Shown: positions 7,863-26,627 of the stretch, piece after piece
Layout of the letters: the number at the start of each line of letters is the position of its first letter
Numbering within the stretch: position 1 is the stretch's first letter
Source of the DNA: Methylococcus sp. Mc7
GTDB taxonomy: Bacteria; Pseudomonadota; Gammaproteobacteria; Methylococcales; Methylococcaceae
Direction: 5' to 3'
DNA length: 64,000 bases
Assembly: GCF_019285515.1 (NCBI RefSeq)
Contig: NZ_CP079095.1
Coordinates: forward strand, 2,049,501-2,113,500
Position numbers and translations under genes: made by a program
Notes under the pieces: generated by a model
What the model was told of the DNA's origin: nothing
Database searches by the model: none
Seen by the model: the letters and a program-made list of their open reading frames with translations, nothing else

Positions 7863-7982
7863 CGCATTGCGCACATCGGTCTCTCCCGCCCGCGGGGAGA
7901 GCGCAGCGAGGGGGGCGAAGCCGGGATCGAAGGAGTCGCTACGCGACGTTTTCACGGTAACGATCATACGAGGAGTCATGAC

Positions 7983-8288: not shown

Positions 8289-8337
8289 GGAGCGCTGCGG
8301 CCGTCGTCGGAATTGGCCGATACCGGGGAGATCGGGC

Positions 8338-11085
8338 ATGAGGGAGCCGAGCGGGCGGGGACGGCGGATCGCTGCGTGGTGCTGGTCGCTGCTGATCGGA
8401 TTCGCGTCCAGCGCGGTGGCGGGAGAGGCCGCCAACGCCTTCGACCGCACCGTCATGCACCCAGCCATCCCGCTGGTGGACGAGGACGGCCGGCACGTGC
8501 TGGAGAGCGGCAAGCCCTACAGCGTCCGGATGAGCTGCGGCAACGGCAGCGGCGGCGGCTGCCACGACTACGACGCGATGAACCACGCCTACCATTTCGA
8601 GCAGGGGCGTGACGAAACCCGCGACGACTACGGCGCCAAGCGCGGCCTGCCCCATCTGGTCGGCCCCGGCTATTTCGGCGGTTTCAACTGCATGCAGGGC
8701 AATGCCGCCGCCGCGCTCGCCCGGAAAGCGAATCCCAACGAGGCGGAATTCGGCGATTACGGCGCGGCGGGCTATGTCAAAGCCTGCAGCACCTGCCATC
8801 TGGGCGGCGGCTGGGAGGAGTCCGACCGCGGCGGCACGCGCTACGACCAGATGCCGGCCGGTTCGATCCCGGCCTGGGACGGCGATTACTACGACCGCAA
8901 CGGCGACGGCCAGGTGGTCCCGTGGGACTGGAAGAAGAGCGGCGTGCGCGAGGCCGACTGCATGATCTGCCATGCCGATTTTTCGCTCTTGAAAAAATTT
9001 CCCGCCAGCGGACTCGGCGGCGACGGCACGGCCGGCGCCCAGGAACACTGGGGCTTGCTGCAGGACGGAAAGTTCGTGGCCCAAGGCTTCTTCCGCTATG
9101 CGAATTCGGCGATGTTCGAGTTTCTCGACGTCCGGCCCGATCTGGCCGGAGGGGCTCAGTTGCTGACGGTGGAGCGGACCGTCAAGCCGGGAACCGCCAA
9201 GCCGGATTACGACCTGGTGCTGGACGACTCTGGCGAACCCGTCCTGCACTGGAACCGGGACGCCTTCGACGACAGAGGCAAGGTGCAGATCCCCATGCGC
9301 CGCTTCCCCGGCAACGACAACTGCATGCTGTGCCATCTGGCGGGGGCCGGCATCAATCGCATCGATGCCGAGGTGAAGAGCAGCCGGCGCGGGTTCTACG
9401 GTTTCGGCGCGGAGGCCGCGGAGACCCCGGGCGAGGATGGAAAGCCCGTCGACGACTACAAGGACGACGTCCACAAGGGGAAGAGCTGGACCGACGACAC
9501 CGGCGAGACCCGGATCATCGACAACTGCAACGCCTGCCATGCCAAGCAGTACTACAAGCCGGCCTACGCCAACATCGACCTCGACGCCGATCACGACTTC
9601 CCCAAGGGCAACGGCGACGCCGACGTCCGCAACGACCTCGATTACCAGCCCGGTCCGGCGGACTGCGAGTATTGCCACAGCACCGCCAAGGCGCCGGCCC
9701 TGCCGTCGGGCCAGCCCACCCTGCTCGATGCCCACCGCGAGCGCTGGAAGTCCTCGGGTTTCATGCGCGGCTATGCCGCGAACTCGTACAACCGGGTGGT
9801 GCAGGTGCATTTCGACGACCTCGCCTGCCAGGCCTGCCACAATCACAAGGCGGTGTACAACGGCAAGACCCTGCCCATGCACTACCGCTACCGGGCGCGT
9901 GCGGACGGGGCGCTGCGGGTCATTCCCTACCTGCCCAACGCCCGCTTCTTCGTCCAGGACCGCAGCAGCGGCCGGGTGCTGTACCGCTACGAAAGACAGT
10001 CGGTGTTCCGCCAGAAGAACGACGGCCAGGCGGCCATCGTCGATCCGGTCGGCGGGCAGGAAACCGGGTCGGTCACCGTCACCGGCGGCCAGTTCGATCC
10101 GCCCTCCACCTACAACGACTTCAAGGCGCTCAAGCAGGCCTACGACGGCCTGCTCAAGGGCAAAGGCTACGCCAGCGCCGACGTGCGCTTCGTCTATGCC
10201 GAGAGCAACGAATACCTCTTCACCCACCAGACCCGGCCGGCGGAGCAGGCGGTAGCCTGCGAGGAGTGCCATACCCGCAGGGCGGACGGCTCGATCAACG
10301 GCGCGGTCGCGGCCAACGGCCTGATGGGCGCCAACCGCGTCATCGAGGTCGCGAGAATCCCGGATTCCCGCCTCGTCGACGAAGGCGTGGTGGAGCTGAC
10401 ATCGGGCTATCACAAGCTGCAGTCCGACGGCAGGATCACCGAGACCGTTGCGGAGGTGCTCAAGGCCACCGAAAAGGCGCCGGACATGTCGATCCTCAAG
10501 GCGGCGACCAGCCGCGCCGTCGGCGGTCCGCTGAGAAAACTGCCGGCCGCCGAGGCCGTGACGCTGGCTTCGCTGGACGAAGACGCCGCCGCAAAGCTCA
10601 CCGCGCAGTGGGGCAGCGGTCTGTCGCTGACCTTTTCCGCCAAGGTCGGCCATGCCTCCGTTCAGGGGGCTGCGCTTTTCATCCCCGGCTCCTCGCTGAA
10701 CCAACTGCTGCTGGACGGCGTCCGGGCGGAACTGAGCAGCAAAGAGCCCACCGCCGCCGAGCGCCGCAAGGTCGGCAAGCTGGGCGCAGGCGCCCTCGCG
10801 TCGGACGTCTACGGCCTGAGCCTGACCCGGAGCGGCGGCAAGACGGTGAAGAATTTCGGCAGCGGCAACGGCTGGGTCAAACTGCCGTATTCGGGCGCCG
10901 CGACCCGGCTCAAGGGCGTCAAGGTCGCGTATTCCGAGGATGGGAAGAACTGGCGCATGCTGCCGCGCGAACGGATCGCCGCCTTCAAGGCCGGCACCGG
11001 CGGCGCGCCGGGCTACGTCCTGTTGCGCCTGAAGCGCCCCGTCGCATCTCTGGCGTTCACGGGCAAGGCGGGAAGCAAGTCCTGA
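8338..11085 (+). CDS. Large multiheme cytochrome c with CX7CH motif (paralogue 2)
   Basis: 915 residues from ATG 8338 (GGGGAG 7 bp upstream; a long open frame extends upstream but without a credible start). The signal peptide ends near SSAVAG/EA. The CX7CH motif CGNGSGGGCH is at residues 67-76, followed by seven CXXCH sites: CSTCH, CMICH, CMLCH, CNACH, CEYCH, CQACH and CEECH. It is collinear with the 4910 product from end to end, including the haem-free C-terminal ~230 residues. Its stop overlaps the start of the outer-membrane barrel gene (TGATG), so the two are translationally coupled, which supports a cytochrome-barrel partnership. Confidence 0.9.
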   Translation: MREPSGRGRRIAAWCWSLLIGFASSAVAGEAANAFDRTVMHPAIPLVDEDGRHVLESGKPYSVRMSCGNGSGGGCHDYDAMNHAYHFEQGRDETRDDYGAKRGLPHLVGPGYFGGFNCMQGNAAAALARKANPNEAEFGDYGAAGYVKACSTCHLGGGWEESDRGGTRYDQMPAGSIPAWDGDYYDRNGDGQVVPWDWKKSGVREADCMICHADFSLLKKFPASGLGGDGTAGAQEHWGLLQDGKFVAQGFFRYANSAMFEFLDVRPDLAGGAQLLTVERTVKPGTAKPDYDLVLDDSGEPVLHWNRDAFDDRGKVQIPMRRFPGNDNCMLCHLAGAGINRIDAEVKSSRRGFYGFGAEAAETPGEDGKPVDDYKDDVHKGKSWTDDTGETRIIDNCNACHAKQYYKPAYANIDLDADHDFPKGNGDADVRNDLDYQPGPADCEYCHSTAKAPALPSGQPTLLDAHRERWKSSGFMRGYAANSYNRVVQVHFDDLACQACHNHKAVYNGKTLPMHYRYRARADGALRVIPYLPNARFFVQDRSSGRVLYRYERQSVFRQKNDGQAAIVDPVGGQETGSVTVTGGQFDPPSTYNDFKALKQAYDGLLKGKGYASADVRFVYAESNEYLFTHQTRPAEQAVACEECHTRRADGSINGAVAANGLMGANRVIEVARIPDSRLVDEGVVELTSGYHKLQSDGRITETVAEVLKATEKAPDMSILKAATSRAVGGPLRKLPAAEAVTLASLDEDAAAKLTAQWGSGLSLTFSAKVGHASVQGAALFIPGSSLNQLLLDGVRAELSSKEPTAAERRKVGKLGAGALASDVYGLSLTRSGGKTVKNFGSGNGWVKLPYSGAATRLKGVKVAYSEDGKNWRMLPRERIAAFKAGTGGAPGYVLLRLKRPVASLAFTGKAGSKS

Positions 11086-12581
11086 TGGTCCGGAGGCGTT
11101 GCTGTTTTGGGAAAGAGGTGCGCCTCCGGCGTGCCTTGGCGTTGCGTCGGGGAGGCGCCGCCCTGCCGATGGCTTGCCTGGTGCTGTGCGGCCTGGGTTC
11201 CTCCCCCGGCCGCTGCGACAACTGGCATGGTTCGGTGCGCAGCAAGGTCCAGGTCGACAACCGTTATACCCTGCGGAATGCGCACGTGTTCGGCGAGCTG
11301 TGGGGCCAGGGGTTTTATGACAACAGCCAGGAGGATCTGCACGGCGCCGTGGAATTCGTGACGCGCACCGGCTATCAGCCCGACGGAGGCGGCGTGGCGG
11401 GGCTGTACCAGGCTTTCGTCGAAAAGGGTTTCGATTCGCTGAACACCCGCGTCAAGCTGGGGCGTTTCCAACGCACCGACAACCTGGGCCTGTACCTGGT
11501 CGACGGCGGCGCCGTCGCCTATGCCTCCGACGACAAGGGATGGGGCTTCGACGCCTATGCCGGCCATCCCAGCCGTTACGACCACGTGATCAGCGTGGAA
11601 GGAAAGTTCGTCGGCGGCCTGGAGGGGCGCGCGCAATGGACGCCGGACTGGGGCTGGGGGAGCGACGGGCCGTCGCTGAGCCGGATCGACGTACGCGGCG
11701 GCTACCAGTATTTCTGGCGCGATCTGTCCCAGAGCGCGTTCGACTATTCCCCGTATACGGGATATGGGGGATCCGCCAGCGGAAACGTGAATTCGGGGGC
11801 GCTGATCGGCGATACCGGCCTGCAAGGCGCGGTCGCTAGCAGTTATTTGGCTTACGGCGGTTCCAAGCCCTGGGGAAGCTCTCTGCAGCGCCTGTATTTC
11901 GCCACCACCGGCGCGGGCAGGCTGGGGCTTTGGCGGAACAGCGATTACGAAATGGGGGTGCTGGGAACCTACCGGGCCGACCGGGAGGCGTTCGAGAACA
12001 TCCGCCTCAACGGCCAGCTCGACCTGACCAATGCGGTACGCGTCCGCGGTTCCTACGAATACTTCCAGCCGCGCGATCCCATCCTGACCTTCCGCGAAAA
12101 GTTCTACAGCGCCTATGCGCTGGGCGAGCAGACCCTGGCGCGGACCCGCATCCAGCACGAGCCGGTGAAGAATTTCAACTACTACGTCGGCGGCCTGGCT
12201 TCGAGCCGCCAGGGTTACGACGGCTACGGCGGCGAGCTCGGGGCGAACTACGTTTTCAATCCCAACTTCGGTCTGATCGGCGAGTTCGACTACATGTCCC
12301 TGGGGCCGGAAACTGCGAGTAGCTTTTACCTCAGCAGCACGCACACCGTGAATTCCCGGCTGCAGATGCGGGTGAACACCGCGCTGCGGTTCGAGGACAA
12401 GATCCTGTACGGGTTCAACCGGGCGGTGGGCGCGGAAATCGAGGCTTTCTACATGCTGCGCAACAATCTCGTGCTCAACGTCGCGGGGAGCTACGTCTGG
12501 TATACCCGCATCCTCGACGAGTACCTGGGGGCGGTCCAGGTGATCTATTACTTCGACAACTTCAAACCGAAGGGGATGTGA
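11085..12581 (+). CDS. Outer-membrane beta-barrel protein, putative cytochrome-conduit porin
   Basis: 498 residues. A basic N terminus and hydrophobic stretch form a probable signal peptide (cleaved near GRC/DN). The mature part has the alternating pattern, many aromatic and Gly residues, and the amphipathic strands typical of outer-membrane barrels, ending in VQVIYYFDNFKPKGM. It overlaps the cytochrome gene upstream and the 7-haem gene downstream by TGATG junctions. In MtrB/PioB-type systems a barrel holds a cytochrome across the outer membrane; I cannot show homology to MtrB from sequence reading, so the conduit role is inferred from context. Confidence 0.7.
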   Translation: MVRRRCCFGKEVRLRRALALRRGGAALPMACLVLCGLGSSPGRCDNWHGSVRSKVQVDNRYTLRNAHVFGELWGQGFYDNSQEDLHGAVEFVTRTGYQPDGGGVAGLYQAFVEKGFDSLNTRVKLGRFQRTDNLGLYLVDGGAVAYASDDKGWGFDAYAGHPSRYDHVISVEGKFVGGLEGRAQWTPDWGWGSDGPSLSRIDVRGGYQYFWRDLSQSAFDYSPYTGYGGSASGNVNSGALIGDTGLQGAVASSYLAYGGSKPWGSSLQRLYFATTGAGRLGLWRNSDYEMGVLGTYRADREAFENIRLNGQLDLTNAVRVRGSYEYFQPRDPILTFREKFYSAYALGEQTLARTRIQHEPVKNFNYYVGGLASSRQGYDGYGGELGANYVFNPNFGLIGEFDYMSLGPETASSFYLSSTHTVNSRLQMRVNTALRFEDKILYGFNRAVGAEIEAFYMLRNNLVLNVAGSYVWYTRILDEYLGAVQVIYYFDNFKPKGM

Positions 12582-13192
12582 TGGCGCGGCTGATACTGGT
12601 TCTGCTCTGGGCCGTGGTCCTCGCTCCCCTCGTCGGCGCCGGTGACCTGCCCGATGCGGTCAAGGACCCCAAGTGGTGGGAGAAGCGGGAGAAACGCACG
12701 GACATCCGCTATCCGCACAACGCCCACATGGAGGTGATGGACGAGGAGGGCGACAGTTGCATGCTGTGCCATTCCTTCGCCCCCAACGCGATGACCGACG
12801 AGAGCAAGCTCAAGCCGCTCACCACGATCTCCAACGAACCGCTCAAGGCGGTCTGCCACGACTGCCACGTGACCGAGCAGCGCGGCCCCTGGCGCTGCAA
12901 CCTGTGCCACGACGACAAGACCAAGATCTGGCCGGAAGACCACCGCTTCGGCTATATCGACCATCATGGTGAGGCCGCGCGTCGGGACGAGGCCGCCTGC
13001 AAGGAGTGCCATCTCGACCTGGCCTTCTGCACCAACTGCCATTTCCGCAGGGACACCATGGGCACCGGCTACCATCCGCTGGGATACCGCACCCTGCACG
13101 GCCTGTCGGTGCGGGTCGACACGCTGGACTGCGGACGCTGCCACAACCAGGTCTATTGCGAGACCTGCCACGCGAGGACCCGATTCCGATGA
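12581..13192 (+). CDS. Periplasmic heptahaem cytochrome c
   Basis: 203 residues with an N-terminal signal peptide (MARLILVLLWAVVLAPLVGA). Seven CXXCH sites: CMLCH, CHDCH, CNLCH, CKECH, CTNCH, CGRCH and CETCH, or one haem per ~29 residues, so the mature protein is almost entirely haem scaffold. The start overlaps the barrel stop (TGATG) and the stop overlaps the next start (ATGA). It is probably an electron shuttle in the periplasm or the component that docks in the barrel; inferred from position. Confidence 0.88.
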   Translation: MARLILVLLWAVVLAPLVGAGDLPDAVKDPKWWEKREKRTDIRYPHNAHMEVMDEEGDSCMLCHSFAPNAMTDESKLKPLTTISNEPLKAVCHDCHVTEQRGPWRCNLCHDDKTKIWPEDHRFGYIDHHGEAARRDEAACKECHLDLAFCTNCHFRRDTMGTGYHPLGYRTLHGLSVRVDTLDCGRCHNQVYCETCHARTRFR

Positions 13193-14187
13193 AAACGACC
13201 CCGAAGCGTCTGGCGACATGGCTGTGCATGGTCGGGTTTGCGGTGCTCTATCCCGCGATGGCCGGTGCCTACACGGTGTCGACCGTGACCGGCAACCTGC
13301 TGCTGACGCCGAAGCATGGCGGCGACGGCACCGCCTGGGGCAGGACCAAATGCGCCAGTTGCCATTTTCTGCAGAACATCCACGAGAAGGCCCCCAACAT
13401 CCGCAACTGGGTGCTCTACAAAGGCACGGCCACCTGCACCGGCTGCCACGGCACCAACGGGACCAACGCGCCGCGGCGCTGCATCATCTGCCACAACGCC
13501 ACCGATCTGGCCACCTCGCCCCGGCAAGGCGGCGCCCACAAGCACGACTTTTCGGTCAAGAAGGTCCGCGCGCTCGGCGACGGCGACTGCCTGACCTGCC
13601 ACGTCAAGCCGGACATGGACGGCCAGTTCGAGCGCGACGTGGATCTGACCGCGATCCGCGACGCCTCCGGCGGCTTCTCGCCGTACACCCGCGATACCGA
13701 CTTCTGCCTGCGCTGCCACAACCGCGACCATCAGCCGGCCGGCGTCCGCATCAAGTCCAGGCCGAGCTACGGGCTCAACGATCCGCTGGTGGCCATCGAG
13801 GATGACTACACGCTCATCGACCGCCACGGCTGGGTCAATGGCGGTACGGGGCCGTACCCCGGCTTGCGCGGCAAGAAATTCCACTATGCCGACGAGGTCG
13901 CCTGCACCGACTGCCACGTCATGCATGGAACCTGCAACCCCAAGCTCATCCTGGACGACACCCGCAAGGGCTCCAACCGGCTGCTGAAGACGCTGCCCAA
14001 GCCTTACAAGGCCCGGGTCCACGGCGGCAACTACGCTCAATTCTGCGTGCTGTGCCACCGGATGGAGGACCCTTCGGTCGAGGAAGGCGCGTATGACGCG
14101 GGCAACGGTCTGTCCGGCGTGCACGACGTCACCTCGGACTGTACCCAGTGCCACACCCACGGGGAGCCGGTGAAGGGGGGATTGTGA
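13189..14187 (+). CDS. Periplasmic octahaem cytochrome c
   Basis: 332 residues with a signal peptide ending near AMAGA/YT. Eight CXXCH sites: CASCH, CTGCH, CIICH, CLTCH, CLRCH, CTDCH, CVLCH and CTQCH. It starts within the stop of the 7-haem gene (ATGA). No hydroxylamine-oxidoreductase or nitrite-reductase signature (CXXCK, cross-link tyrosine) is visible, so an electron-carrier role is more likely than an enzyme. Its stop codon once overlapped the GTG start of the next gene; an inserted element now separates them. Confidence 0.88.
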   Translation: MKTTPKRLATWLCMVGFAVLYPAMAGAYTVSTVTGNLLLTPKHGGDGTAWGRTKCASCHFLQNIHEKAPNIRNWVLYKGTATCTGCHGTNGTNAPRRCIICHNATDLATSPRQGGAHKHDFSVKKVRALGDGDCLTCHVKPDMDGQFERDVDLTAIRDASGGFSPYTRDTDFCLRCHNRDHQPAGVRIKSRPSYGLNDPLVAIEDDYTLIDRHGWVNGGTGPYPGLRGKKFHYADEVACTDCHVMHGTCNPKLILDDTRKGSNRLLKTLPKPYKARVHGGNYAQFCVLCHRMEDPSVEEGAYDAGNGLSGVHDVTSDCTQCHTHGEPVKGGL

Positions 14188-14191
14188 GGGG

Positions 14192-14398
14192 CAATACTGT
14201 TGAATTAAGCCGTCATGCCGGCATGGATTGCCGGCATCCAGGCCACAAGGATGTGATTCGCGCCGGCCATCCCTGGCCACTGGGTTCCGGCACAAATCCG
14301 CCGGGAGCGGATTTGCATTTACCCGCAGGGCGGCAGGCAGGACAGCCTGCCGTGAGTCCATGCCGGAACGACGGGCCAAAACTTATTTCAACATCATT
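14192..14398. mobile_element. ~207-bp MITE-like insertion with 12-bp target duplication
   Basis: The exact 12-bp repeat GATTGTGAGGGG flanks the element (14180-14191 and 14399-14410). The two ends are imperfect inverted repeats: the left end runs CAATACTGTTGAATTAAG... to CCGGCATGGA, and the right end read backwards runs AATGATGTTGAAATAAG... to CCGGCATGGA. It carries no gene. The duplicated bases contain both the TGA of the 8-haem gene and the GTG of the 6-haem gene. Confidence 0.8.
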
Positions 14399-14402
14399 GA
14401 TT

Positions 14403-15335
14403 GTGAGGGGAGGGCGGAGCGCGTGGCCGGAATCGAGCAGGTGGCTGGCGGGAATGCTGCTGTGGGTGCTCGGCACCGGCATCGCGGCTGCGGGCGCCGA
14501 CGACAGCTACGCGACGACGAAGAAGCTGCCCCCCCTGCACCACGTCATCGGCGTCGTGCTGCCCGAGGAGATGAAGACGCCGAAACGCCTGCCGCTGCGG
14601 GAGGACCGCGAGCTGCGCTGTCCGACCTGCCACGGCATCGAGGACATCGACAAGGTGCCGTACCGCCGGATCGACCGCAGCCTGCCGGATTTCCTGCGGG
14701 GCGGGCCTTACGACAAGCTGGAGACCTTCTGTTACGAATGCCACGAGGAAGACAAGTTCAAGCGCCCCAACGTCCACATCATGCTGGACAAGAACGGCAA
14801 GCTCCAGGAGGAGCACTGCACCTACTGCCACGAGGAGGTGCACCGGGAGCGGGACCGGCCGCTGCGCGCGGCGGACTACAGGCTGCGGCTGCCGCCGGAA
14901 CGCCTCTGCTACGGCTGCCATCTGAAGACGCCGCATTTCAATGCGCTGGAGCACCAGGATTCGAAGCCCGACGCCCGGATGAAGCTCCACATGAAAGACT
15001 CGAAGGAGCGTTACGGCATCATTCTGCCCCTGAGCCGGGAGGGCAAGGTCATGTGCCCGACCTGCCACGCCCCTCACCAGCCGGGCGTCATCGATGCGCT
15101 CAACACCGCCGCCGGCCGGGTGGACGACGCCGATCTGGAAACCGGCGTCAGCTACCGCGAGCACCCCTGGGATGCGGTGGTGCGGGAAGACAAGAAGGCG
15201 CGGCTGGAGGCCTTGAGCGAACAAAGCGGACAACGATTCGAGCTGGGATACCGGCGGATCGACAAGGAAGTGTTGCTGAGGCTGCCGGCGAAGGACGGAC
15301 AACTGTGCCTGGCCTGCCATCAGTTCGACGAATGA
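14403..15335 (+). CDS. Periplasmic hexahaem cytochrome c
   Basis: 310 residues from GTG 14403. The signal peptide is WLAGMLLWVLGTGIAAAGA, with cleavage near AAAGA/DD. Six CXXCH sites: CPTCH, CYECH, CTYCH, CYGCH, CPTCH and CLACH. GTG was chosen because its duplicated copy at 14184 overlaps the upstream stop as GTGA, the pattern used throughout this operon. After the insertion no Shine-Dalgarno sequence precedes the start (ACATCATTGATT), so expression may be reduced. Role inferred: periplasmic electron carrier, next to a NapH-like quinol oxidase. Confidence 0.85.
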   Translation: MRGGRSAWPESSRWLAGMLLWVLGTGIAAAGADDSYATTKKLPPLHHVIGVVLPEEMKTPKRLPLREDRELRCPTCHGIEDIDKVPYRRIDRSLPDFLRGGPYDKLETFCYECHEEDKFKRPNVHIMLDKNGKLQEEHCTYCHEEVHRERDRPLRAADYRLRLPPERLCYGCHLKTPHFNALEHQDSKPDARMKLHMKDSKERYGIILPLSREGKVMCPTCHAPHQPGVIDALNTAAGRVDDADLETGVSYREHPWDAVVREDKKARLEALSEQSGQRFELGYRRIDKEVLLRLPAKDGQLCLACHQFDE

Positions 15336-15363: not shown

Positions 15364-16413
15364 ATGAATGCCCTGACCGCGAAATTTTCCGAAAAAGTCC
15401 GATCCGTGCCGAAGATCCAGCGTTACCGCTATTTCTGGATCGCCGTGTCCTGCGCGATGTTCCTGGGGCCGCTGGCGGTGCTGCCGGGCCTGGCCGGCAA
15501 CACCGATCTGTGCGGCAAGCTGTGCATGCGCCGCTTCTATCTGTATTTCCCCGGCATGAACTGGGACGACCTGTTCATGCACGTCTCGGTGGCCCTGATC
15601 GGCGTGGTGGCCTTCTTCGTCATCATCACCTTCACCTTCTTCTTCGGGCGCATCTGGTGTTCCTTCATCTGCCCGGTCGGCGGGTTCTCGGAGCTGGTCA
15701 GCCGGATGCTGAACGACCGCTGGAAGATCGAATACCGCGGGCTGCCCCAGGTCCAGATCCGTTACGGTTACCTCGCGGTCTACATGGGCCTGCTGCCGCT
15801 GCTCGGGGTCAGCGCCTGCACCCTGTGCAACTTCATCACCGTGCCGCGCTTCGTCGAGGCCCTGAGCGGGGGCTTCGTCGGCCTGGCCTTCATCTTCTCC
15901 ACCGTCGGCCTGGTCAACCTGTCCCTGTTGTTCCTGCTCGGCTTCTTCGCCAGCAAGGGGCGCGCCTACTGCCAGTTCCTCTGCCCGATCGGCGCCATCG
16001 ACGGGCTGGTCAACCGCCTGGGCGCGAAATTCCGCTTCACCCATCACATCCGGGTCGACAAGCAGCGCTGCACCGGCTGCACCGATTGCGCGAAGAAGTG
16101 CATGTGCGGCGCCATCAAGATGGTCGACAAGGTCGCCGTGGTCGATCAGTTCTCCTGCATGTCCTGCCACGACTGCGTCGACGCCTGCGACTGGAATGCC
16201 ATCGAATGGACCACGGCGCCCAGGAACAAGACGCCCAAGCGGGTCAAGCGCGGCATCCAGATCCATCCGGAGCCGCAATGGCAGGCGGTGGTGAGGATGC
16301 AGCCGAAGCCGGCGCCGACCGCGCCGGTCATCCACTGGGGGCGAGTGGTCAATGGCGTGATCGTGGCGGGCTTTTCCCTGTTCCTGTTCGCGACCGCGGT
16401 GTGGCTGCACTGA
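15364..16413 (+). CDS. NapH/NosR-like membrane 4Fe-4S protein
   Basis: 349 residues. Several membrane segments are visible, with the motifs CSFICPVG and CQFLCPIG typical of the NapH family. Two ferredoxin-type clusters follow on a soluble loop (CTGCTDCAKKC and CMSCHDCVDAC), and there is a final TM helix near the C terminus. Family members oxidise quinol or pass membrane electrons to periplasmic partners. A good GAGGAG site precedes ATG 15364. Placed among multihaem genes, it is the likely quinol entry point into the cytochrome chain; which partner it reduces is unknown. Confidence 0.9.
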   Translation: MNALTAKFSEKVRSVPKIQRYRYFWIAVSCAMFLGPLAVLPGLAGNTDLCGKLCMRRFYLYFPGMNWDDLFMHVSVALIGVVAFFVIITFTFFFGRIWCSFICPVGGFSELVSRMLNDRWKIEYRGLPQVQIRYGYLAVYMGLLPLLGVSACTLCNFITVPRFVEALSGGFVGLAFIFSTVGLVNLSLLFLLGFFASKGRAYCQFLCPIGAIDGLVNRLGAKFRFTHHIRVDKQRCTGCTDCAKKCMCGAIKMVDKVAVVDQFSCMSCHDCVDACDWNAIEWTTAPRNKTPKRVKRGIQIHPEPQWQAVVRMQPKPAPTAPVIHWGRVVNGVIVAGFSLFLFATAVWLH

Positions 16414-16438: not shown

Positions 16439-19384
16439 ATGCGGCAGCGATTTTTGAATTCGAAGACGATGCGGTACGCCTGTTCTCTGTGTCTCGCGTG
16501 GCTGATGCTGGCCGCGTGCGGTTCCGTCCTGGCCGCGGAGCGGCACAGCGATCCCGACGGCTGTTTCTCCTGCCATGGCCTGCCGGGGCTCGAATACCTG
16601 GACGACCACGGCGTGCTGCGGGTCGCCACCATCCTCAAGAGCGACTATTACGGATCGCTGCATGGCAGCGTGCCCTGCAAGGACTGCCACCGCAAGATCG
16701 AGCGCTATCCGCACAAGCCGGAGGAAGGCTATGTGGACTGCTCCGAGTCCTGCCATCTGAAGGAGCCGTCCAAGGACAAGGCCTTCACCCACAAGCCGGT
16801 GGTCGACGAGTTCAAGAAATCGGTCCACGGCGCCGGCCATGCGCCGGGAGCGACCACGGATTTCCACGGCGGCAACCGCCTCGAGGAGGAGACCGGCCAG
16901 CAGAATCCCTCCTGCCGGCGCTGCCATTCCAACACCCCGTACATCAAGGACGCCAACCTGGAGCGGTTCAAGCAGGAGCTGCACCACACCGAGACCGAGT
17001 GCGGCACCTGCCACCAGGGCGAAACCTGGCGCAACCAGTTCAGCGGTCACATCCTGCGCCGCCTGGTCGGCAAGAACTACAACAAGATGGAAGCCAACGC
17101 CATGTGCGTGGACTGCCACGGCAATCCTGAAGCCATGGCCAAGGTCGAAATCCAGGACCCGGAAACCAAGGAAAGGAAAAAGGCCAGCTACCGCTTCGCC
17201 CACGCCGCCGACAGTTACGCGAAGACGCTGCATGGCAGGTTCCTCGCGGTCGACGACGAAGCCGGCGCGAGCTGCATCGACTGCCACGCGCCCGACGGTT
17301 TCCGCCACGGCGTCCTGCGGGACGAGTCGAAGGCCGCCTCGACCCACCCGGACCGGCTCGGCGAGACCTGCTCGCAGGCGGGATGCCACGGCTATGCGAA
17401 GAGCCCGCTCAATCTCGGATTCCTCAACACCGACCTGCATGACCTGGATTTCGTGCGCATGAAGGATTCGTCCTTCGCCCTGGACTTCTCCCGCCTCGAT
17501 TCGGCCTGGTACGCCGCCGCATGGGTGCTGGGTCCGCTCGGCCTGATCTTCCTGGTGTCCAGCTTCCTCTCGCCCTTGTCCCATTCCCGGAATTCGCCGG
17601 TCACCGAGGTCGTGGGTTACGACCACTTCCAGCGCGTGATGATCGGCAGCACTTCCGCCAAGACCGGCCTGTGGCGGCGCATCCTGCCGCGGCTGGCCGG
17701 ACGGGTGCCCTCCGCCGCTCCGGCCTCCGCGCCGGCGGTCGAACCCGACGCCCCCGTCACCTCGCTGACCATCCTGTTCGGCTCCCAGACCGGCAACGGC
17801 GAAGGCGTCGCCGCCGATCTCGAGGCGAGGGCCAAGTCCTGGGGCTACAGCGTCAAGCTGGCCGACATGGCGCACTACGATCCGCACGAAATCGTCAACG
17901 AAAGGCTGCTGTTCGTCATCGTCAGCACCCACGGCGAGGGCCAGCCGCCGATCCCGGCGGAGAAGCTGCACGGCTATCTCTATGCCGAAACCGCGCCGCG
18001 GCTGGAGCATCTCAAATTCGCCGTATTCGCCCTCGGCGACAGCAGCTACAAGCATTTCTGCAAGGCCGGCAAGGATTTCGACGCCTTCCTGCAGCGCATG
18101 GGGGCGAGCCGGGTGCTCGACCGGGTGGACGCCGATGCCGATTTCGAGGAACCAGCGGCGGCCTGGATCGAGGCGGTCCTCGGCTGCTGCCGCGCCATCA
18201 TCGGCGACACCGGCATCGAGCAGCCTCTTGAGGCCGAGCCGGCCGATCAGGCGGCCAGGGCCGGCTACGGCAAGACCAATCCCTACCCGGCGGAGGTCCG
18301 GCGCAACGTCAATCTCAACGGGGAGGGCTCCGCCAAGGAAACCCGCCACATCGAAATCGACCTCGGCGATTCCGGCCTGAGCTACGAGCCGGGGGATGCC
18401 CTGGGAGTCTATCCGAAGAACAACCCCGTTTACGTCGAAGCCCTGCTGGCCGCCTTGCGGGCCGACGGCTACGCCGAAGTGAGCCTGGGCAAGGAGACCC
18501 TCACGCTGCGGGAAGCGTTCTACAGGCATCTCGACATCACCGGCCTGAGCCGGGTGCTGGTCGAGAAATACGCGGAACTGTGCGACAGCCGGGTCCTGGC
18601 CGGGCTGCTGGCGGATGCCGACCCCACCCGGCTGGAGGGCTATATGTGGGGCCGGCAGCTCATCGACCTGGTCGAGGATTTCCCGCTCGAGGACGTTCCG
18701 CCCCAGGTTTTCGTCAACGTCCTGCGGCGCATGCCGCCCCGGCTGTATTCGATCGCCTCGAGCATGAAGGCCCATCCCGGCCAGGTGCATCTCACCGTCG
18801 GCGCAGTGCGCTACCACGCCCATGGCCGGGACCGGGAAGGGGTCTGCTCCACCTACCTCGCCGGCCGTGTCGGCGCGGACGAGCGGCTTTCCATCTTCGT
18901 GCAGCCGAACAAGCATTTCCGCCTGCCCGAAGACCCGGCGACGCCGCTGATCATGGTCGGGCCGGGCACCGGCATCGCGCCGTTCCGGGGGTTCGTGGAG
19001 GAACGCGAGGCCACCGGCGCCAGCGGCCGGAACTGGCTGTATTTCGGCGACCAGCGCCGCGCCACCGATTACCTCTACCGGGAGGAATGGGAGGACAAGC
19101 TCGCGCGCGGCGTGCTGACCCGGCTGGATCTCGCCTTCTCGCGCGACCAGGAGTGGAAGGTTTACGTGCAGACCCGGATGCTGGAAAACGCCGGGGAGAT
19201 GTACGCCTGGCTCGAGGAGGGCGCCTGTTTCTACGTCTGCGGCGACGCCTCGCGCATGGCCCAGGACGTCCATCAGGCGCTGCTGACGATCGTGATGCAG
19301 GAGGGCGGAAGGACGCAGGAGCAGGCCGAGGAATACCTCGAGGCCATGGCCGCCTCCCGGCGCTATCTGCGCGACGTGTATTGA
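16439..19384 (+). CDS. Fusion: octahaem cytochrome c - TM - CysJ-type FMN/FAD/NADPH reductase
   Basis: 981 residues. An export signal occurs at 11-33 (contains LAAC, so a lipoprotein site is possible). Haem sites: CXXCH at 42, 80, 159, 188, 223 and 279, a CX3CH (CSESCH, 101) and a CX4CH (CSQAGCH, 311). One TM helix lies at about 356-377. After a Pro/Ala linker comes a flavodoxin domain (FGSQTGNGEG, 447-456), then a ferredoxin-NADP reductase module with PRLYSIASS (FAD), GVCSTYLAGR, GPGTGIAPFRGF and YVCGDASRM (NADPH), ending in RYLRDVY like CysJ. The N-out/C-in topology places haems in the periplasm and flavins in the cytoplasm, so the protein should move NADPH electrons across the membrane. 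ATG 16469 is an alternative start (971 aa). No sulfite-reductase haemoprotein is nearby. Confidence 0.93.
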   Translation: MRQRFLNSKTMRYACSLCLAWLMLAACGSVLAAERHSDPDGCFSCHGLPGLEYLDDHGVLRVATILKSDYYGSLHGSVPCKDCHRKIERYPHKPEEGYVDCSESCHLKEPSKDKAFTHKPVVDEFKKSVHGAGHAPGATTDFHGGNRLEEETGQQNPSCRRCHSNTPYIKDANLERFKQELHHTETECGTCHQGETWRNQFSGHILRRLVGKNYNKMEANAMCVDCHGNPEAMAKVEIQDPETKERKKASYRFAHAADSYAKTLHGRFLAVDDEAGASCIDCHAPDGFRHGVLRDESKAASTHPDRLGETCSQAGCHGYAKSPLNLGFLNTDLHDLDFVRMKDSSFALDFSRLDSAWYAAAWVLGPLGLIFLVSSFLSPLSHSRNSPVTEVVGYDHFQRVMIGSTSAKTGLWRRILPRLAGRVPSAAPASAPAVEPDAPVTSLTILFGSQTGNGEGVAADLEARAKSWGYSVKLADMAHYDPHEIVNERLLFVIVSTHGEGQPPIPAEKLHGYLYAETAPRLEHLKFAVFALGDSSYKHFCKAGKDFDAFLQRMGASRVLDRVDADADFEEPAAAWIEAVLGCCRAIIGDTGIEQPLEAEPADQAARAGYGKTNPYPAEVRRNVNLNGEGSAKETRHIEIDLGDSGLSYEPGDALGVYPKNNPVYVEALLAALRADGYAEVSLGKETLTLREAFYRHLDITGLSRVLVEKYAELCDSRVLAGLLADADPTRLEGYMWGRQLIDLVEDFPLEDVPPQVFVNVLRRMPPRLYSIASSMKAHPGQVHLTVGAVRYHAHGRDREGVCSTYLAGRVGADERLSIFVQPNKHFRLPEDPATPLIMVGPGTGIAPFRGFVEEREATGASGRNWLYFGDQRRATDYLYREEWEDKLARGVLTRLDLAFSRDQEWKVYVQTRMLENAGEMYAWLEEGACFYVCGDASRMAQDVHQALLTIVMQEGGRTQEQAEEYLEAMAASRRYLRDVY

Positions 19385-19411
19385 GCCGGCTTCGCTGAAC
19401 GGTGCTTGGAG

Positions 19412-20218
19412 ATGAAGTTGAAGGGTAAGCTGAGGTTGGGACCCGCGGGTCTGGTGCTGTTCCTCTCGTGCTGGGCGAACGGCGGCTCGTCCTTCGCCGG
19501 CGAGCCGCTGTTCGTCCAGCGGGTCGAGTCGGCCGTGCCGACGCAGGAAGCCATCGGCAAGGCGGAGGAGCAGGTACGCGAGCACAAGGACGTGAAGCTC
19601 CGGGAAAAGATGGCCGTACCGCCGTTCCACAAACGGATGGAGCCGCCGCTGCGCGAGGGCGAAACCTACTGTCAGGGCTGTCACCGTCCCCAGCCGCACG
19701 GCAAGAAACTCCGTACCCGCAGTTTCCTCAACATGCACAGCCGTTATATCGCTTGCGAGACCTGCCATTTCCGGCCCGAGGACGTTCGGCTGGACTACCG
19801 TTGGTTCGACTACGGATCGCGTGCGTCCGCCGACCCTGACGGCAGCAGGTTCCGGACGGGACGGAACATCGACAATTCGGTGCTGATCGACGGTAAATTC
19901 AAGATCGCGCCGTTTTACAAAGGCGAGCCCGCGTTCGCCTTGCCCGGGACGGCGTTCGCCGAACGGGTCGGCCGCGAGTGGAAGGACGGCGACCTGCCCG
20001 CCAGGACGCAGCTCAAGGCCCGTCTGCACACGCCCTTGAGCAAGGAAGGGCCGGCCTGCGCCAAGTGCCATACCGAAGACGCCCCCGTGCTGGATCTCGC
20101 GGCCCTCGGCGCGGATGCCCGCCAAGCCGCGGCCATCCGCAGGCACGTCATCCCGCAGTTCTTCGACCGTTACCAGTCCGACGACGAACGGCTGAAGATC
20201 ATCGACATCCTGCGCTGA
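19412..20218 (+). CDS. Exported trihaem cytochrome c
   Basis: 268 residues, signal peptide cleaved near SSFAG/EP. Three CXXCH sites (CQGCH, CETCH, CAKCH) are spread over the mature protein, with a charged coiled-coil-like stretch (EAIGKAEEQVREHKDVKLRE) near the N terminus. ATG 19412 is preceded by GGAG directly, so the site is close; TTG 19406 is an alternative. It lies 27 bp after the flavoprotein fusion and 7 bp before the NHL cytochrome, so it is part of the same operon. Family not recognised beyond multihaem c-type. Confidence 0.82.
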   Translation: MKLKGKLRLGPAGLVLFLSCWANGGSSFAGEPLFVQRVESAVPTQEAIGKAEEQVREHKDVKLREKMAVPPFHKRMEPPLREGETYCQGCHRPQPHGKKLRTRSFLNMHSRYIACETCHFRPEDVRLDYRWFDYGSRASADPDGSRFRTGRNIDNSVLIDGKFKIAPFYKGEPAFALPGTAFAERVGREWKDGDLPARTQLKARLHTPLSKEGPACAKCHTEDAPVLDLAALGADARQAAAIRRHVIPQFFDRYQSDDERLKIIDILR

Positions 20219-20225
20219 AGCGATC

Positions 20226-23024
20226 ATGGCGAACAATCTTGCGGGAGCACTCGTGCTGCGCTGTGCCGCCGCGATCGCCGCCGGCCTGATCGGGCTGGGG
20301 CCGGCGGCGGCCGGTGCCCTCCAGGCGGTGGTGGCGTCCGATCCGGTTGGGTACGAGGCCGGCTTCGAGCAACCTTCGGCTGTGGCCGCGGATGGCGCGG
20401 GCCGGGTCTACGTGCTCGACGGCGCCCACCACCGGATCGTGGTGCTCACGCCGGACGGGGGAATCCTTCGAACCCTCGGCGGCGCCGAGCTGCTGAAGCT
20501 GCCGATGGACTTCGCTCTCTCCGAGGAAGGGCTGGCGGTCGCCGATACCGGCCATCACCGGCTGGTGCTGTTCCGCCCCGACGGCACGTTGCAAAAGACG
20601 CTGGACCTGCCCAGCGAGTCCTTGCCGGAGCCCTCTCCGAAGCCGGAAGCGTCGCCGCAAACCAGCCCCCCGCCGAGGCTGCCGCCGGAGCCGGTGGCCG
20701 TCATCGTGCAGGACGGCATCGCCTTCTGGGCCGACCGGCGCAGCCACCGCGTGTGCCGGACCCGGCTGGCGGACGGCCTGGACTTGGGCTGTTTCGGCGG
20801 GCGCGGGGAAGAGCCGGGGCAGTTCCAGTACCCGTTCCAGATCGCCCAGGACCGCGACGGTTATTTCAACGTCGTGGACGTCGTCAATGCCCGCATCCAG
20901 GTGTTCGACAAGAGCGGGCGCGCGTTTTCCCAGATCGGCCGGTTCGGCCTCGACGAAGGCGAACTGTTCCGCCCCAACGGCCTCGCCATCGACCGGGAGC
21001 AGGACGCGTTTTTCGTCAGCGACGGCTATTTCGGGACCATCTCGGTGTTCCGCAAGGGCGAGTTCCTGGGACTGCTGCGGACGCCGGACGGCCAGCCGGT
21101 CAAGCTGGATTCGCCCACCGGCCTCCATTTCCGCGACGGCCGGCTTTACGTCGCCGAAACCGGCGCCAGCCGGGTGTGGCGCTACCGGGTGAGCTATCCC
21201 GAGCGTGCCGCGTCAGCCAAGGAAAACGGCGTGCGCACCGAGCTGTCGCAAAAGAATTGCCTGCTGTGCCATCTGTCCTGGGCCGGCGATGCGCCGCCAG
21301 AGGTCCGCGCCGCCGATGCGGAAGGAGCGCTGCCGGAGGCCTCCTACCGCATGTGCTACAGTTGCCACAACGGCGCGGTCATGGATTCGCGCCTGGCCAT
21401 CCATCGGGGCGCGCAGCATCCCACGGTTTACGAAAGCCCCAAGGAGAAAAAACGCCATGCGGGACTCGAACCGCGCAAGGACAAGCTTCCCGACAAGTTT
21501 CCGGTCACCCGGGACAAGCAACTGCTCTGCACCTCCTGCCACACCCCGCATACCGACGCGGAAAAGGCGCAGACGCTGTATCCGGCCCACGGCAACGCCT
21601 GGCTGCGAATACCGAACCGGGGCGGCGATCTGTGCGAGCGCTGCCACGAATCCAAGGTCAAGGGCGCTCGCCTCGACGCGCCGGTGCAGCCCGGGTCCGC
21701 CGAAGGGAAGAAAGGCCCCAAGGGCCTCAACCATCCCTTGGGGATACGCTTCGTGCCGCCGCCTCATCCGGAGGCGAAGGGCTACCCTTCCGAGACCGAA
21801 TTGCGCAAAGGGCTGCCGGAGCGCCTGACCGCCGGCGGCGCGGCGCTCGGCGATCACGAGGAACTGATCTGCCAGACCTGCCACCAGGTCCACGGCGGCC
21901 ACGGCGACGGCAAGACCACGGTCCTGGAAACCGCCAAGGGCGAGCTGTGCGCCGCCTGCCATCGGCGCCAGTTCACCAAGAGCAAGGAGGAGGCCTACGA
22001 GAAGGGCGTCCACCCCGTCAACGTCAAGCGCGAACCGGACGAGTCCGGCGCAAGGCCCGTGTTGTGGAAAGGCAAGCCGGAAATCACCGAGGTCGGCTGT
22101 CAGACCTGCCACCGCGTCCACGACGGCAGCGCGCGGACCCCGCTTCTGCCCGAAGGGGTCGCGAACGCGGAAAGCCTGTGCAAGAACTGCCACGAACGCC
22201 AGCACGCCGAGGACGAGAAGGACGCCAGGAAGAAGGGCGTGCATCCGGTCAACGCCGAGCTGGACGAGCCGGTGCGGATCGGCGGCAAGGAAGTCAGGAC
22301 AGTGGGCTGCCTCAGTTGCCACTCCGTGCACGGCGGCAAACCCCATACCGCCGCCCTGGTGGAGACGGACCGCGACGGCGAGCTGTGCAGCCATTGCCAC
22401 AAACAGAAGCAGACCGTCGTGGGCACCGATCACGACCTGCGCATCACCGCCAAGGACGAGAAGAACGCCCTGGGCAAGCTGCCGTCCGAAACCGGCGTCT
22501 GCGGAAGCTGCCATACCCTGCACCGCGGCAAGGGCGACCGCCGCTTCCTGTTCGCGGCGAGGAAGGTGGAGCCGCAGCCCGGCCCGGCGATGGACGAGAC
22601 GCCTTTCAAGCGGGATGGACTGTGCCTGAACTGCCACCAGAAGGGCGGGATCGGCGAGAAGAAGGTGGTCCCTCATTTCAGCCACCCGCAAAAGGATCTG
22701 GTGCTGCGCTCCGACCAGAAGATCCTGCCGCTGCTGGGCGCCAAGGAAGAGCCCGAGGACTTCGGCGGCATCGCCTGCATCACCTGCCATGAACCGCACG
22801 TCTGGGATGCCGACAGGATTCCGCCGCCCGGCAAGGACGGGACGATCGCACTGTCCGCCAACAGGGAAAACCTGGAGGGCAGCAACCGCGACGCGTTCCT
22901 CCGGGCGAAGGATGCCGACAAGGTGTTCTGTGTCGACTGCCACGGGCTCGGGACCCTGGTGAAGTACAAGTACTATCACGACGCCAGGCGCGCCCGGAAC
23001 GGGGGGGTGGATTATCTGCGGTGA
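20226..23024 (+). CDS. NHL beta-propeller fused to a 14-haem cytochrome c
   Basis: 932 residues with a signal peptide (to about residue 31). Residues ~35-330 carry NHL-type repeats (QPSAVAADGAGRVYVLDGAH, FRPNGLAIDREQDAFFVSD, LDSPTGLHFRDGRLYVAET), a six-bladed propeller, with a Pro-rich insertion at ~135-155. Residues ~340-920 hold fourteen CXXCH sites: CLLCH, CYSCH, CTSCH, CERCH, CQTCH, CAACH, CQTCH, CKNCH, CLSCH, CSHCH, CGSCH, CLNCH, CITCH and CVDCH. Several occur in pairs around a repeated HPVN unit, suggesting internal duplication. A propeller on a long haem wire suggests docking or substrate binding at the end of the chain; role inferred. Confidence 0.9.
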   Translation: MANNLAGALVLRCAAAIAAGLIGLGPAAAGALQAVVASDPVGYEAGFEQPSAVAADGAGRVYVLDGAHHRIVVLTPDGGILRTLGGAELLKLPMDFALSEEGLAVADTGHHRLVLFRPDGTLQKTLDLPSESLPEPSPKPEASPQTSPPPRLPPEPVAVIVQDGIAFWADRRSHRVCRTRLADGLDLGCFGGRGEEPGQFQYPFQIAQDRDGYFNVVDVVNARIQVFDKSGRAFSQIGRFGLDEGELFRPNGLAIDREQDAFFVSDGYFGTISVFRKGEFLGLLRTPDGQPVKLDSPTGLHFRDGRLYVAETGASRVWRYRVSYPERAASAKENGVRTELSQKNCLLCHLSWAGDAPPEVRAADAEGALPEASYRMCYSCHNGAVMDSRLAIHRGAQHPTVYESPKEKKRHAGLEPRKDKLPDKFPVTRDKQLLCTSCHTPHTDAEKAQTLYPAHGNAWLRIPNRGGDLCERCHESKVKGARLDAPVQPGSAEGKKGPKGLNHPLGIRFVPPPHPEAKGYPSETELRKGLPERLTAGGAALGDHEELICQTCHQVHGGHGDGKTTVLETAKGELCAACHRRQFTKSKEEAYEKGVHPVNVKREPDESGARPVLWKGKPEITEVGCQTCHRVHDGSARTPLLPEGVANAESLCKNCHERQHAEDEKDARKKGVHPVNAELDEPVRIGGKEVRTVGCLSCHSVHGGKPHTAALVETDRDGELCSHCHKQKQTVVGTDHDLRITAKDEKNALGKLPSETGVCGSCHTLHRGKGDRRFLFAARKVEPQPGPAMDETPFKRDGLCLNCHQKGGIGEKKVVPHFSHPQKDLVLRSDQKILPLLGAKEEPEDFGGIACITCHEPHVWDADRIPPPGKDGTIALSANRENLEGSNRDAFLRAKDADKVFCVDCHGLGTLVKYKYYHDARRARNGGVDYLR

Positions 23025-24161: not shown

Positions 24162-24881
24162 ATGAACCTGCTGGAATCAACCCGCGTGGCCGTCGCGCGG
24201 CGGCGCAATGGCCGGGGCTCTCCCGTTCGATCCGCGGGCATCGGTTTCTCCCGGCCTTTTCTCGCCGGCGTCTTGCTCGCCCTCGGATCTTCCTTGGGCC
24301 TGCCGGCCGTTTCGCCGGCTGCCGACCGGCGCCCGGAGGATCCGGCGCCGTCTGCGGACGTTGCCGACAAAGGGCGGCAGCTCGAAGCGCTCGCCCGTCT
24401 CGATTCAGCTCCGCTGCTCTCCGAGTCGGCGGTTCCCGCGCTCTTGGATGGCGCGGTTGCCGCATTGAGGCAGGGAATCGAGAATGGCCCGCCGTTTTCG
24501 CTGACCGAGCGGAGAAGCCGCATCGCCCGGCTGGAAAAGCTGCTGGGCGAGCCCAATGTCGACGTCGCCGAGAAATACCGCCGCGTTCTGGAGGCTTACC
24601 GGGCGGAGCTCGACTATGGGAAAACCGTGGAGGCATACCGTGACCTGCTGCGGACGGAGGACGGCGAACGCTTGGTGGATTTCCTGAGCATCGGCCGCCT
24701 GGCGCTGTATTACCAGACCCTGGACGGCCGCGAGTCGGGCATCTGGCGCGACCGCGAGAAGCAATGGCGCAGGCTCTCCCCCGAATACAACCGCGCAATC
24801 GCGCTCGGGCTGCGCGCCGCCCGCAAGCTGGAACCCCCGCAGCTCCTCCCCTTGCCCCTGCCGGGGCCGAGATCGCCATGA
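24162..24881 (+). CDS. DUF3450 protein of a TonB2-type energising system
   Basis: 239 residues from ATG 24162 (GGGCGAGG 5 bp upstream; GTG 24156 is possible). Hydrophobic signal near residues 30-50. The C-terminal half has the DUF3450 pattern EKYRRVLEAYRAELDYGKTV and VDFLSIGRLALYYQTLDG, with coiled-coil-forming stretches. DUF3450 proteins accompany ExbB-ExbB2-ExbD-TonB clusters in the periplasm. The usual long N-terminal coiled coil is interrupted: residues ~82-90 (SAPLLSESA) are encoded by the 25-bp dispersed repeat at 24406-24430. The stop overlaps the next start (ATGA). Confidence 0.8.
   Translation: MNLLESTRVAVARRRNGRGSPVRSAGIGFSRPFLAGVLLALGSSLGLPAVSPAADRRPEDPAPSADVADKGRQLEALARLDSAPLLSESAVPALLDGAVAALRQGIENGPPFSLTERRSRIARLEKLLGEPNVDVAEKYRRVLEAYRAELDYGKTVEAYRDLLRTEDGERLVDFLSIGRLALYYQTLDGRESGIWRDREKQWRRLSPEYNRAIALGLRAARKLEPPQLLPLPLPGPRSP
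24406..24430 (+). repeat. 25-bp dispersed repeat inside the DUF3450 gene
   Basis: CAGCTCCGCTGCTCTCCGAG followed by TCGGC, one mismatch from the consensus, read in frame. Confidence 0.8.
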
Positions 24882-26122: not shown

Positions 26123-26129
26123 CGGCAAG

Positions 26130-26627
26130 ATGGCGGCGCTCGGGTTTCGATCTCTGGCGGACGCCATGCTGGCCGCGGCTCAGGGCATCCAGGAGCTGAT
26201 GGCCTCGGGCGGTCCGGTGATGTGGCCGCTGCTGGGTGTTTCGCTGCTGCTGTGGGGACTGATCCTGGACCGCTACTGGTATTTCCTCCATACCTTGCCC
26301 AAGGCGCGGGGGAGACACCGTTCGGCCGTGGAGACCGCCGAGGTCCGCATCGCGTTGTGGCGCCACCTCCGCCTCATCAGGACCTTGTCCGGGATCCTTC
26401 CCATGCTGGGCCTGCTGGGAACGGTCACCGGCATCGTGGAGACTTTCGACCTGATCCGGGTGTTCGGCACCGCCGAGACCCGCATCGTCGCCCGCGGCGT
26501 GTCCCAGGCATTGATCACGACGCTGACCGGCCTGGTCATGGGGCTCTCCGGCGTGGGCGCGGGTTACGACCTGAACCGGCGGGCGGAGGCGGGCGAGCGG
26601 GCCATGGCCGGGAGCCGGGCGCCATGA
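26130..26627 (+). CDS. exbB: ExbB-like proton channel subunit (short)
   Basis: 165 residues from ATG 26130. TM1 is at about 27-45 (GPVMWPLLGVSLLLWGLIL). The core GILPMLGLLGTVTGIVETF and the third helix SQALITTLTGLVMGLSGVG are present. This is the second, short ExbB found in TonB2 clusters. It starts 7 bp after the long ExbB gene and its stop overlaps exbD (ATGA). Confidence 0.88.
   Translation: MAALGFRSLADAMLAAAQGIQELMASGGPVMWPLLGVSLLLWGLILDRYWYFLHTLPKARGRHRSAVETAEVRIALWRHLRLIRTLSGILPMLGLLGTVTGIVETFDLIRVFGTAETRIVARGVSQALITTLTGLVMGLSGVGAGYDLNRRAEAGERAMAGSRAP

Follow-up and report, generated by a model that had tools for sequence, protein, structure and literature searches.

A 64,000-nucleotide stretch of the genome of Methylococcus sp. 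Mc7 (contig NZ_CP079095.1, positions 2,049,501 to 2,113,500; hereafter, the window) carries on its forward strand, at 16439-19384, a gene whose product joins an octahaem cytochrome through one transmembrane (TM) helix to a CysJ-type diflavin reductase. The polypeptide is intact, it is encoded within what is, judging by the predicted products, a conserved operon for surface-type multihaem cytochromes, and it has as constant partner a predicted NapH-like membrane protein, fused to the octahaem in four genomes. We believe that this fusion is probably the part that oxidises NADPH at the input of an electron-export unit in the inner membrane, in which electrons would travel from NADPH through flavin adenine dinucleotide (FAD), flavin mononucleotide (FMN) and the clusters of the NapH-like protein to the octahaem and a surface conduit. 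A preliminary description, made from the letters alone, had proposed a self-contained electron pump; the gene looks instead like the input module of a surface-cytochrome operon.

The open reading frame (ORF) begins with ATG and comprises 981 codons with no internal stop. A motif count confirmed the eight haem sites first reported, namely six CX2CH (CFSCH, CKDCH, CRRCH, CGTCH, CVDCH and CIDCH), one CX3CH (CSESCH) and one CX4CH (CSQAGCH). In an alignment of 23 sequences the protein starts with a signal peptide (16439-16537) that, as placed by eye, has an AxA-type end (SVLA/AERH); in Methylococcus a lipobox-like xAC (LAAC, LVAC or WIAC) lies ahead of this end, and the other aligned genera do not have it. 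The octahaem domain follows (residues 34-345; 16538-17473), and in a 13-row alignment all eight motifs plus nine more His were invariant and one further His nearly so. Pfam recognised an MtrC/MtrF domain II/IV in this part (residues 80-230; 33.0 bits, cut-off 30). The NCBIfam search returned no match for the octahaem part of the window, some relatives matching weakly, and no sequence relative was found among solved structures at E 0.01 (one chain reached 0.099). After the TM helix (residues 356-377, best hydrophobic window 359-377; 17504-17569), located by hydrophobicity and alignment, and a linker (residues 381-440; 17579-17758) come the three domains of the reductase: the FMN-binding flavodoxin domain (Flavodoxin_1, PF00258; residues 445-576; 17771-18166), the FAD-binding domain (FAD_binding_1, PF00667; residues 612-806; 18272-18856) and the NADPH-binding domain (NAD_binding_1, PF00175; residues 839-945; 18953-19273), past which the chain ends in RYLRDVY. 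The NCBIfam cysJ model TIGR01931 matched residues 429-981 over its positions 47-597 with 677.6 bits (cut-off 668.15), and nearly the whole module, to its end, aligned with the solved CysJ 6EFV (E 1.4e-143). Fusion and 6EFV have in common SQTGN, RLYSIASS (FAD-binding domain), GPGTGIAPFR and SRDQ..KVYVQ (both NADPH-binding domain) and the aromatic C terminus. The claim of one TM helix and a complete FMN-FAD-NADPH module in a single polypeptide was thereby borne out.

A frameshift or an assembly join between cytochrome and flavoprotein, the weak point foreseen in the preliminary description, was ruled out by the intact ORF, the orthologues and purifying selection. Three further Methylococcus assemblies (L002, L030 and L031) encode orthologues of 981, 981 and 980 residues, and the nearest named relative compared, Methylococcus capsulatus Texas, is 90% identical. 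The ratio of nonsynonymous to synonymous substitution rates (NG86 method, window gene against the same three orthologues) lay at 0.085-0.120 in the octahaem part, at 0.094-0.103 in the FMN domain and at 0.125-0.233 in the FAD and NADPH domains, values of 0.77-0.94 being confined to the linker at residues 381-440, which is weakly constrained. The fusion thus has two halves under constraint, joined by a loose tether. Purifying selection acts on each of them, and the search of other genomes that the preliminary description had suggested found the architecture in 12 of the 48 Methylococcales genomes whose octahaem match is strong, so an assembly join is not tenable.

These 48 genomes come from a sample of 301 Methylococcales, that of Mc7 included, in which the octahaem was sought at E <= 1e-10; 50 genomes had a match, and two of them (G057 and G132, about 1e-11) were not counted as relatives. 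By open frame, 12 of the strong matches are CysJ-fused (families f1 and f5), 34 unfused and two fragments (G038 and G297); one fused member is cut by a contig end, and in G098 and G229 the octahaem match contains a TGA. Outside the order, a set of 369 gammaproteobacterial genomes (368 besides that of Mc7) gave five close matches of 50-55% identity, the remaining ones being 26-33% identical, and of 349 genomes drawn evenly from the Pseudomonadota and searched at E 1e-15, that of Mc7 matched and none of the 348 others did. At all 28 distinct loci read, the octahaem has a NapH-like gene as its direct neighbour or its fusion partner. The order MtrC-like cytochrome, barrel, seven-, eight- and six-haem cytochromes, NapH-like protein, octahaem, three-haem cytochrome and NHL-repeat multihaem protein is kept at many loci, whereas at others some members are missing or the contig ends. 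NapH-like protein and octahaem form one polypeptide at four of the five non-Methylococcales loci (743, 722, 739 and, cut by the contig, 640 residues), where TM5 of the NapH part stands in for the octahaem signal peptide. As a separate observation, L079 carries at 5360-6304 (minus strand) a NapH-like protein without predicted TM5 beside an unfused octahaem bearing its own signal peptide, a pair that could be a split NapH-octahaem fusion. A triple fusion of NapH, octahaem and CysJ, considered for frames of 1288 and 1249 residues in L035 and L036, was ruled out, NapH being a separate overlapping ORF there.

Two trees bear on the origin of the CysJ part. In the octahaem tree (28 rows), the fused members and the unfused L032 made up one clade (100/98), with no resolved order inside it, and the NapH-octahaem fusions did not form a single clade (2 changes). 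In the CysJ tree (44 rows, leaving out L107, which ends with its contig at 399 residues; the label "cysI" means ordinary CysJ, with the CysI neighbour checked for some rows), the 10 octahaem-fused modules were one clade (98/97), whose sister group is three FwdD-CysJ fusions (joint support 100/99). Given the CysJ clade and an octahaem clade that includes L032, a single CysJ fusion followed by one loss in L032 is the simplest reading, though not a proven one.

The NapH-like partner is encoded just upstream of the fusion (15364-16413, forward strand). It has five hydrophobic segments, and its CX3CP motifs at 99 and 203 together with two Fer4 matches are those by which NapH is recognised; with the NapH model TIGR02163 it scored 78 bits, below the cut-off of 213.05. 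Its CX3CP motifs lie 104 residues apart, as against 92-93 in the parsed NapH proteins over the cut-off and 87-102 in the other parsed members. Moreover, Cys50, Cys54, Cys152 and Cys155 were invariant and at fixed spacing in the 27 octahaem-linked NapH-like proteins (a count that omits L038, where the gene is cut by a contig end), and this set was absent from the 42 parsed controls, that is, E. coli NapH, 28 of 28 NapH-family and 13 of 13 NosR- or NapH-like proteins. The controls tried were 30 plus 20 matches and E. coli NapH, under family labels of our own; unparsed were two of the 30 and seven of the 20 (six without the motif pair, and L158 with ferredoxin-type pairs only). A few controls had a single Cys at such sites, at -74 or +26, or at +6 in six of the NosR- or NapH-like set.

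The NapH-octahaem fusions also inform on topology. As haems are attached outside, the order in these chains must be Fer4 inside, TM5, octahaem outside, TM helix and tail inside. This implies that CysJ would occupy the cytoplasmic tail after the octahaem helix, in support of the periplasmic octahaem and cytoplasmic flavins of the preliminary description. Lys and Arg are more numerous on the C-terminal than on the N-terminal side of the helix in 11 of 12 unfused octahaems, but in only five of 11 fused rows. If haems are indeed attached outside, CX3CP 99/103 and 203/207 would face the cytoplasm, and Cys50 and Cys54 (first outer loop) and Cys152 and Cys155 (outer end of TM3) would face the periplasm. 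These four extra Cys are candidates for an outer cluster, which would complete the electron path.

We then compared the locus with a cytochrome operon published for M. capsulatus Bath. A sigma54-like site at 4774-4790 (forward strand) is an exact copy of the 17-base promoter motif printed for MCA0424 in PMC4831470, and the eight operon cytochromes (ORFs 4727, 6850, 12578, 13006, 14148, 16439, 19406 and 20226) have 58 CX2CH motifs, which is the published number, or 60 haem motifs when the CX3CH and CX4CH sites are included. On these grounds the locus corresponds to MCA0424-0433, and gene order and motif count make the fusion the likely counterpart of MCA0431. The 17-base identity serves only to identify the locus, since a general sigma54 scan gave 10 matches, below the chance mean of 17. 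Neither the Fur box nor the IHF site that is printed for MCA0424 has an exact copy in the window, and with three mismatches allowed there was still no match to that Fur box or to the general Fur consensus.

All members of the operon lie on the forward strand. It opens with the ORF of a seven-haem MtrC-like cytochrome, the MCA0424 counterpart (4727-7666), which probably starts after the sigma54-like site, and continues with an ORF holding another seven-haem MtrC-like cytochrome (6850-11085; PF22113, 34.2 bits) whose true start is later, the product having 1036 residues in L002. The MtrC-like family PF22113 exceeded its cut-off in window ORFs 929, 4727 and 6850, and MCA0424 and MCA0426, the counterparts of 4727 and, by order, of 6850, are placed in the surface fraction in PMC4831470. 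A putative outer-membrane beta-barrel (11187-12581, start approximate) had no Pfam match and was assigned by its conserved position as the counterpart of MCA0427, described there as a beta-barrel (PMC4831470). Motif count, Pfam and the conserved locus identified a seven-haem (12578-13192) and an eight-haem cytochrome (13006-14187), and these are followed by a six-haem cytochrome (14148-15335) with its true start probably further into the ORF. Beyond the NapH-like and fusion genes, motif count and Pfam identified a three-haem cytochrome (19406-20218) and an NHL-repeat protein with 14 haem motifs (20226-23024). No operon product passed the cut-off (192.2 bits) of the MtrA/DmsE-type decahaem model TIGR03508, the NHL-repeat, eight-haem and six-haem proteins reaching 61.4, 29.1 and 28.2 bits.

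The physiology published for strain Bath is consistent with electron export. The eight cytochrome genes of its operon were up 2.3- to 8.6-fold, MCA0431 4.3-fold, in copper-starved cells with soluble methane monooxygenase (PMC4831470). The strain makes current and reduces ferrihydrite, more so when copper-starved (Tanaka et al. 2018, PMC6281684), with a formate-dependent anodic current of 118 nA per cm2 in copper-starved versus 22 nA per cm2 in copper-fed cells. This current is an order of magnitude under that of Shewanella; deletion of MCA0421 lowered it, and no growth on Fe(III) was seen (PMC6281684). No description of the domain order or of a link to NADPH was found among the papers listed in the literature searches, which included no preprints and few subscription papers, and no word starting with "flavo" or "NADPH" occurs in the main text of PMC4831470. 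An electron-transfer cluster reported for Methylobacter in 2026 is described as a different four-gene set (PMC13322032).

In the scheme that we favour, NADPH would reduce FAD and then FMN in the cytoplasm, and FMN would pass electrons to the two cytoplasmic [4Fe-4S] clusters of the NapH-like protein. The membrane part of the latter, with the CX3CP Cys on its cytoplasmic side and the extra four on its periplasmic side, would deliver them to the octahaem, from which they could proceed to the six-, eight- and seven-haem cytochromes, to the barrel and to the surface cytochromes of MtrC type. Another donor must exist for the NapH-octahaem unit, as CysJ is not attached in 34 of the 48 octahaem-bearing genomes; in lineages without CysJ, this might be, at a guess, quinol or ferredoxin. 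The CysJ graft would then be an optional upgrade tying the unit to NADPH, for use in electron export, or in extracellular iron or copper reduction, under copper starvation. The more specific version, in which the CysJ flavins feed NapH-like iron-sulfur clusters on both faces of the membrane and, through the octahaem, an extracellular metal under copper starvation, we put forward tentatively, as somewhat less than an even chance.

Several alternatives were weighed against this scheme. A lasting role of the CysJ half in assimilatory sulfite reduction, with the membrane only as its anchorage, would suit its TIGR01931 score and the fact that no second full-length CysJ-type module turned up in the Mc7 genome. 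Yet, as the preliminary description had stated for CysI, no protein in the whole genome passes the TIGR02041 cut-off, and the same holds for all 12 genomes that carry the fusion. The three weak partial TIGR02041 matches of Mc7 all fall in one protein whose best NCBIfam matches are NirA-like and below cut-off. The same pattern was present in all 40 genomes scanned (with broken frames in G130), 10 of which have no full-length CysJ, and CysI exceeded the cut-off in four of the 40, all four without octahaem match. A sulfite role is therefore very improbable. We give equally little credit to the self-contained pump, in which the fusion alone would move NADPH electrons through its one TM region. The arrangement of flavin and haem domains, which flank one helix within a single chain, speaks for it, but tunnelling across a whole bilayer without cofactor is not feasible, and the helix, which is also kept in unfused relatives, has no conserved His or Cys as possible ligand, so that the fusion by itself is not expected to conduct electrons. 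The constancy of the NapH-like partner, and the many relatives without the CysJ part, likewise go against this part of the preliminary description.

Electrons might also run inwards, from outside or periplasmic donors to NADP+ for biosynthesis. Diflavin reductases are reversible in principle, and in the sister FwdD-CysJ clade, which adjoins formylmethanofuran dehydrogenase-like genes, NADP+ reduction would be natural. However, it is uphill from typical surface-haem donors, and the activity published for the organism is outward (PMC6281684), which makes such a reverse flow most unlikely. A better, albeit still minor, chance goes to a quinone-coupled unit, in which a NapH-like quinol dehydrogenase would feed the octahaem and CysJ would supply NADPH electrons as a side branch, to this dehydrogenase or to the pool, which would not be bypassed. 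NapH proteins are described as quinol-oxidising (PMC5928378), so the bypass of the quinone pool claimed in the preliminary description is not established, and the lack of an attached CysJ in most octahaem-bearing Methylococcales points the same way; against it, the extra periplasmic-side Cys, absent from the NapH controls, suggest a different path.

Some results weigh against the NADPH-to-surface scheme itself. The fusion passes TIGR01931 by only 9.5 bits, and structure predictions for the fusion and the NapH-like protein, built on four alignment rows each, were uninformative (mean predicted local distance difference test score 39.6 in one and 38.9 in the other). The four extra Cys could be disulfides, giving no path, and the controls that lack them are a selection of NapH-family matches, not every NapH-like family. 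Six of the 11 fused rows, that of the window included, do not have the Lys and Arg excess after the TM helix. As regards strain Bath, MCA0431 is given as not detected (ND) by mass spectrometry in PMC4831470, and in PMC6281684 the donor used was formate and the gene deleted, MCA0421, lies outside the present operon. Published biochemistry of the fusion protein was not found in the literature searched.

Comparison with known systems places the proposed unit among several of them. It shares with CysJ (TIGR01931, 6EFV) the FMN, FAD and NADPH domains, their order, motifs and C terminus, and differs in having an octahaem and TM helix for the first 46 model positions, a clade of its own and a genome without CysI over the cut-off. 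The partner has the TM core, two CX3CP and two Fer4 of NapH, and departs from the NapH, NosR and RdhC iron-sulfur proteins in its CX3CP spacing, its four extra Cys and its linkage or fusion to an octahaem. Like MtrCAB and other porin-cytochrome conduits, the operon has MtrC-like cytochromes and additional multihaem proteins, together with a putative beta-barrel whose Bath counterpart is reported as one; unlike them, it has no MtrA/DmsE decahaem over the cut-off, and its input is NapH-like protein plus octahaem-CysJ, not CymA. In NADPH oxidase (NOX), FRE, STEAP and MsrQ, too, a cytoplasmic NAD(P)H-flavin module drives reduction across a membrane, but through membrane b-haems, whereas the fusion has no conserved haem ligand in its helix, an iron-sulfur partner next to it and outer c-haems. 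MsrQ is related to NOX and STEAP (PMC8238504). If the two-sided wire exists, iron-sulfur clusters would do the job that b-haems do in NOX, FRE and STEAP. The scheme offers a genetically testable answer to how methanotroph surface cytochromes might be charged from NADPH, by a tethered flavin module and a distinct NapH-like subfamily; if true, the supply of NADPH would be coupled to reduction outside the cell, with a bearing on low-oxygen methane oxidation, copper acquisition and bioelectrochemistry. The natural series of separate NapH-like and octahaem proteins, fused NapH-octahaem and fused octahaem-CysJ could serve as a route to NapH-type transmembrane electron transfer.

Further CysJ-type modules were seen in the surveys. 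Among the 12 fused members, seven pass TIGR01931 and five fail (667.8, 659.2, 653.0, 650.1 and, cut by the contig, 420.1 bits); the match begins at position 47 of the model for the window protein and at 36-60 across the 12, the N terminus of the module thus being incomplete. The 369 gammaproteobacterial genomes, with at most three candidates scored per genome, gave 62 CysJ-family matches in 55 genomes, and the window had the only frame above 900 residues. The unfused CysJ-like genes of the f8 genomes are unlikely partners of unfused octahaems because they belong to a different clade and a GltB-like ORF lies beside them or at most two genes away at seven of nine loci. In L053, such an orphan gene (7237-8979, minus strand) adjoins an ORF of some 1825 residues for a glutamate synthase of GltB type (9134-14617, minus strand); the arrangement was also seen in L054, L057, L059 and L064, and at one or two genes' distance in L058 and L065, the GltB-like call being based on Pfam in L053 only, with none seen in L055 and an unclear case in L056. 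The orphan is possibly a stand-in for GltD. The FwdD-CysJ fusions (L060 6150-8351, minus; L061 7285-9477, plus; L062 3603-5825, plus) also join a CysJ-type module to another redox module, in this case an N-terminal FwdD-like molybdopterin-dinucleotide-binding domain (NF042908, E 1.5e-14, checked by hidden Markov model in L061). Unlike the octahaem fusion they have no predicted TM helix and adjoin formylmethanofuran dehydrogenase-like genes, named by eye (one is Amidohydro_3, another had no Pfam match), and they are possibly NADP-linked formyl-methanofuran dehydrogenases. A gammaproteobacterial protein of 846 residues (L083 3672-6212, minus) has an N-terminal cytochrome b part (b/b6 type) fused to such a module, and is placed elsewhere in the CysJ tree.

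Finally, L045 has at the usual three-haem site, directly after an unfused octahaem, an ORF (10711-13989, plus) with weak, below-cut-off matches to the BREX PglX methyltransferase. In the window, large multihaem proteins with eight and nine CX2CH and PKD or Ig-like domains (929-4405 and 28028-32002) flank the operon, and downstream of it lie ExbB/TolQ-, ExbD/TolR- and TonB-like genes (24764-27864). A TonB-receptor plug protein (54572-56836) and another ExbB-like ORF (56949-58301) are found further on, and these ExbB/ExbD/TonB-type genes hint at metal or haem uptake.

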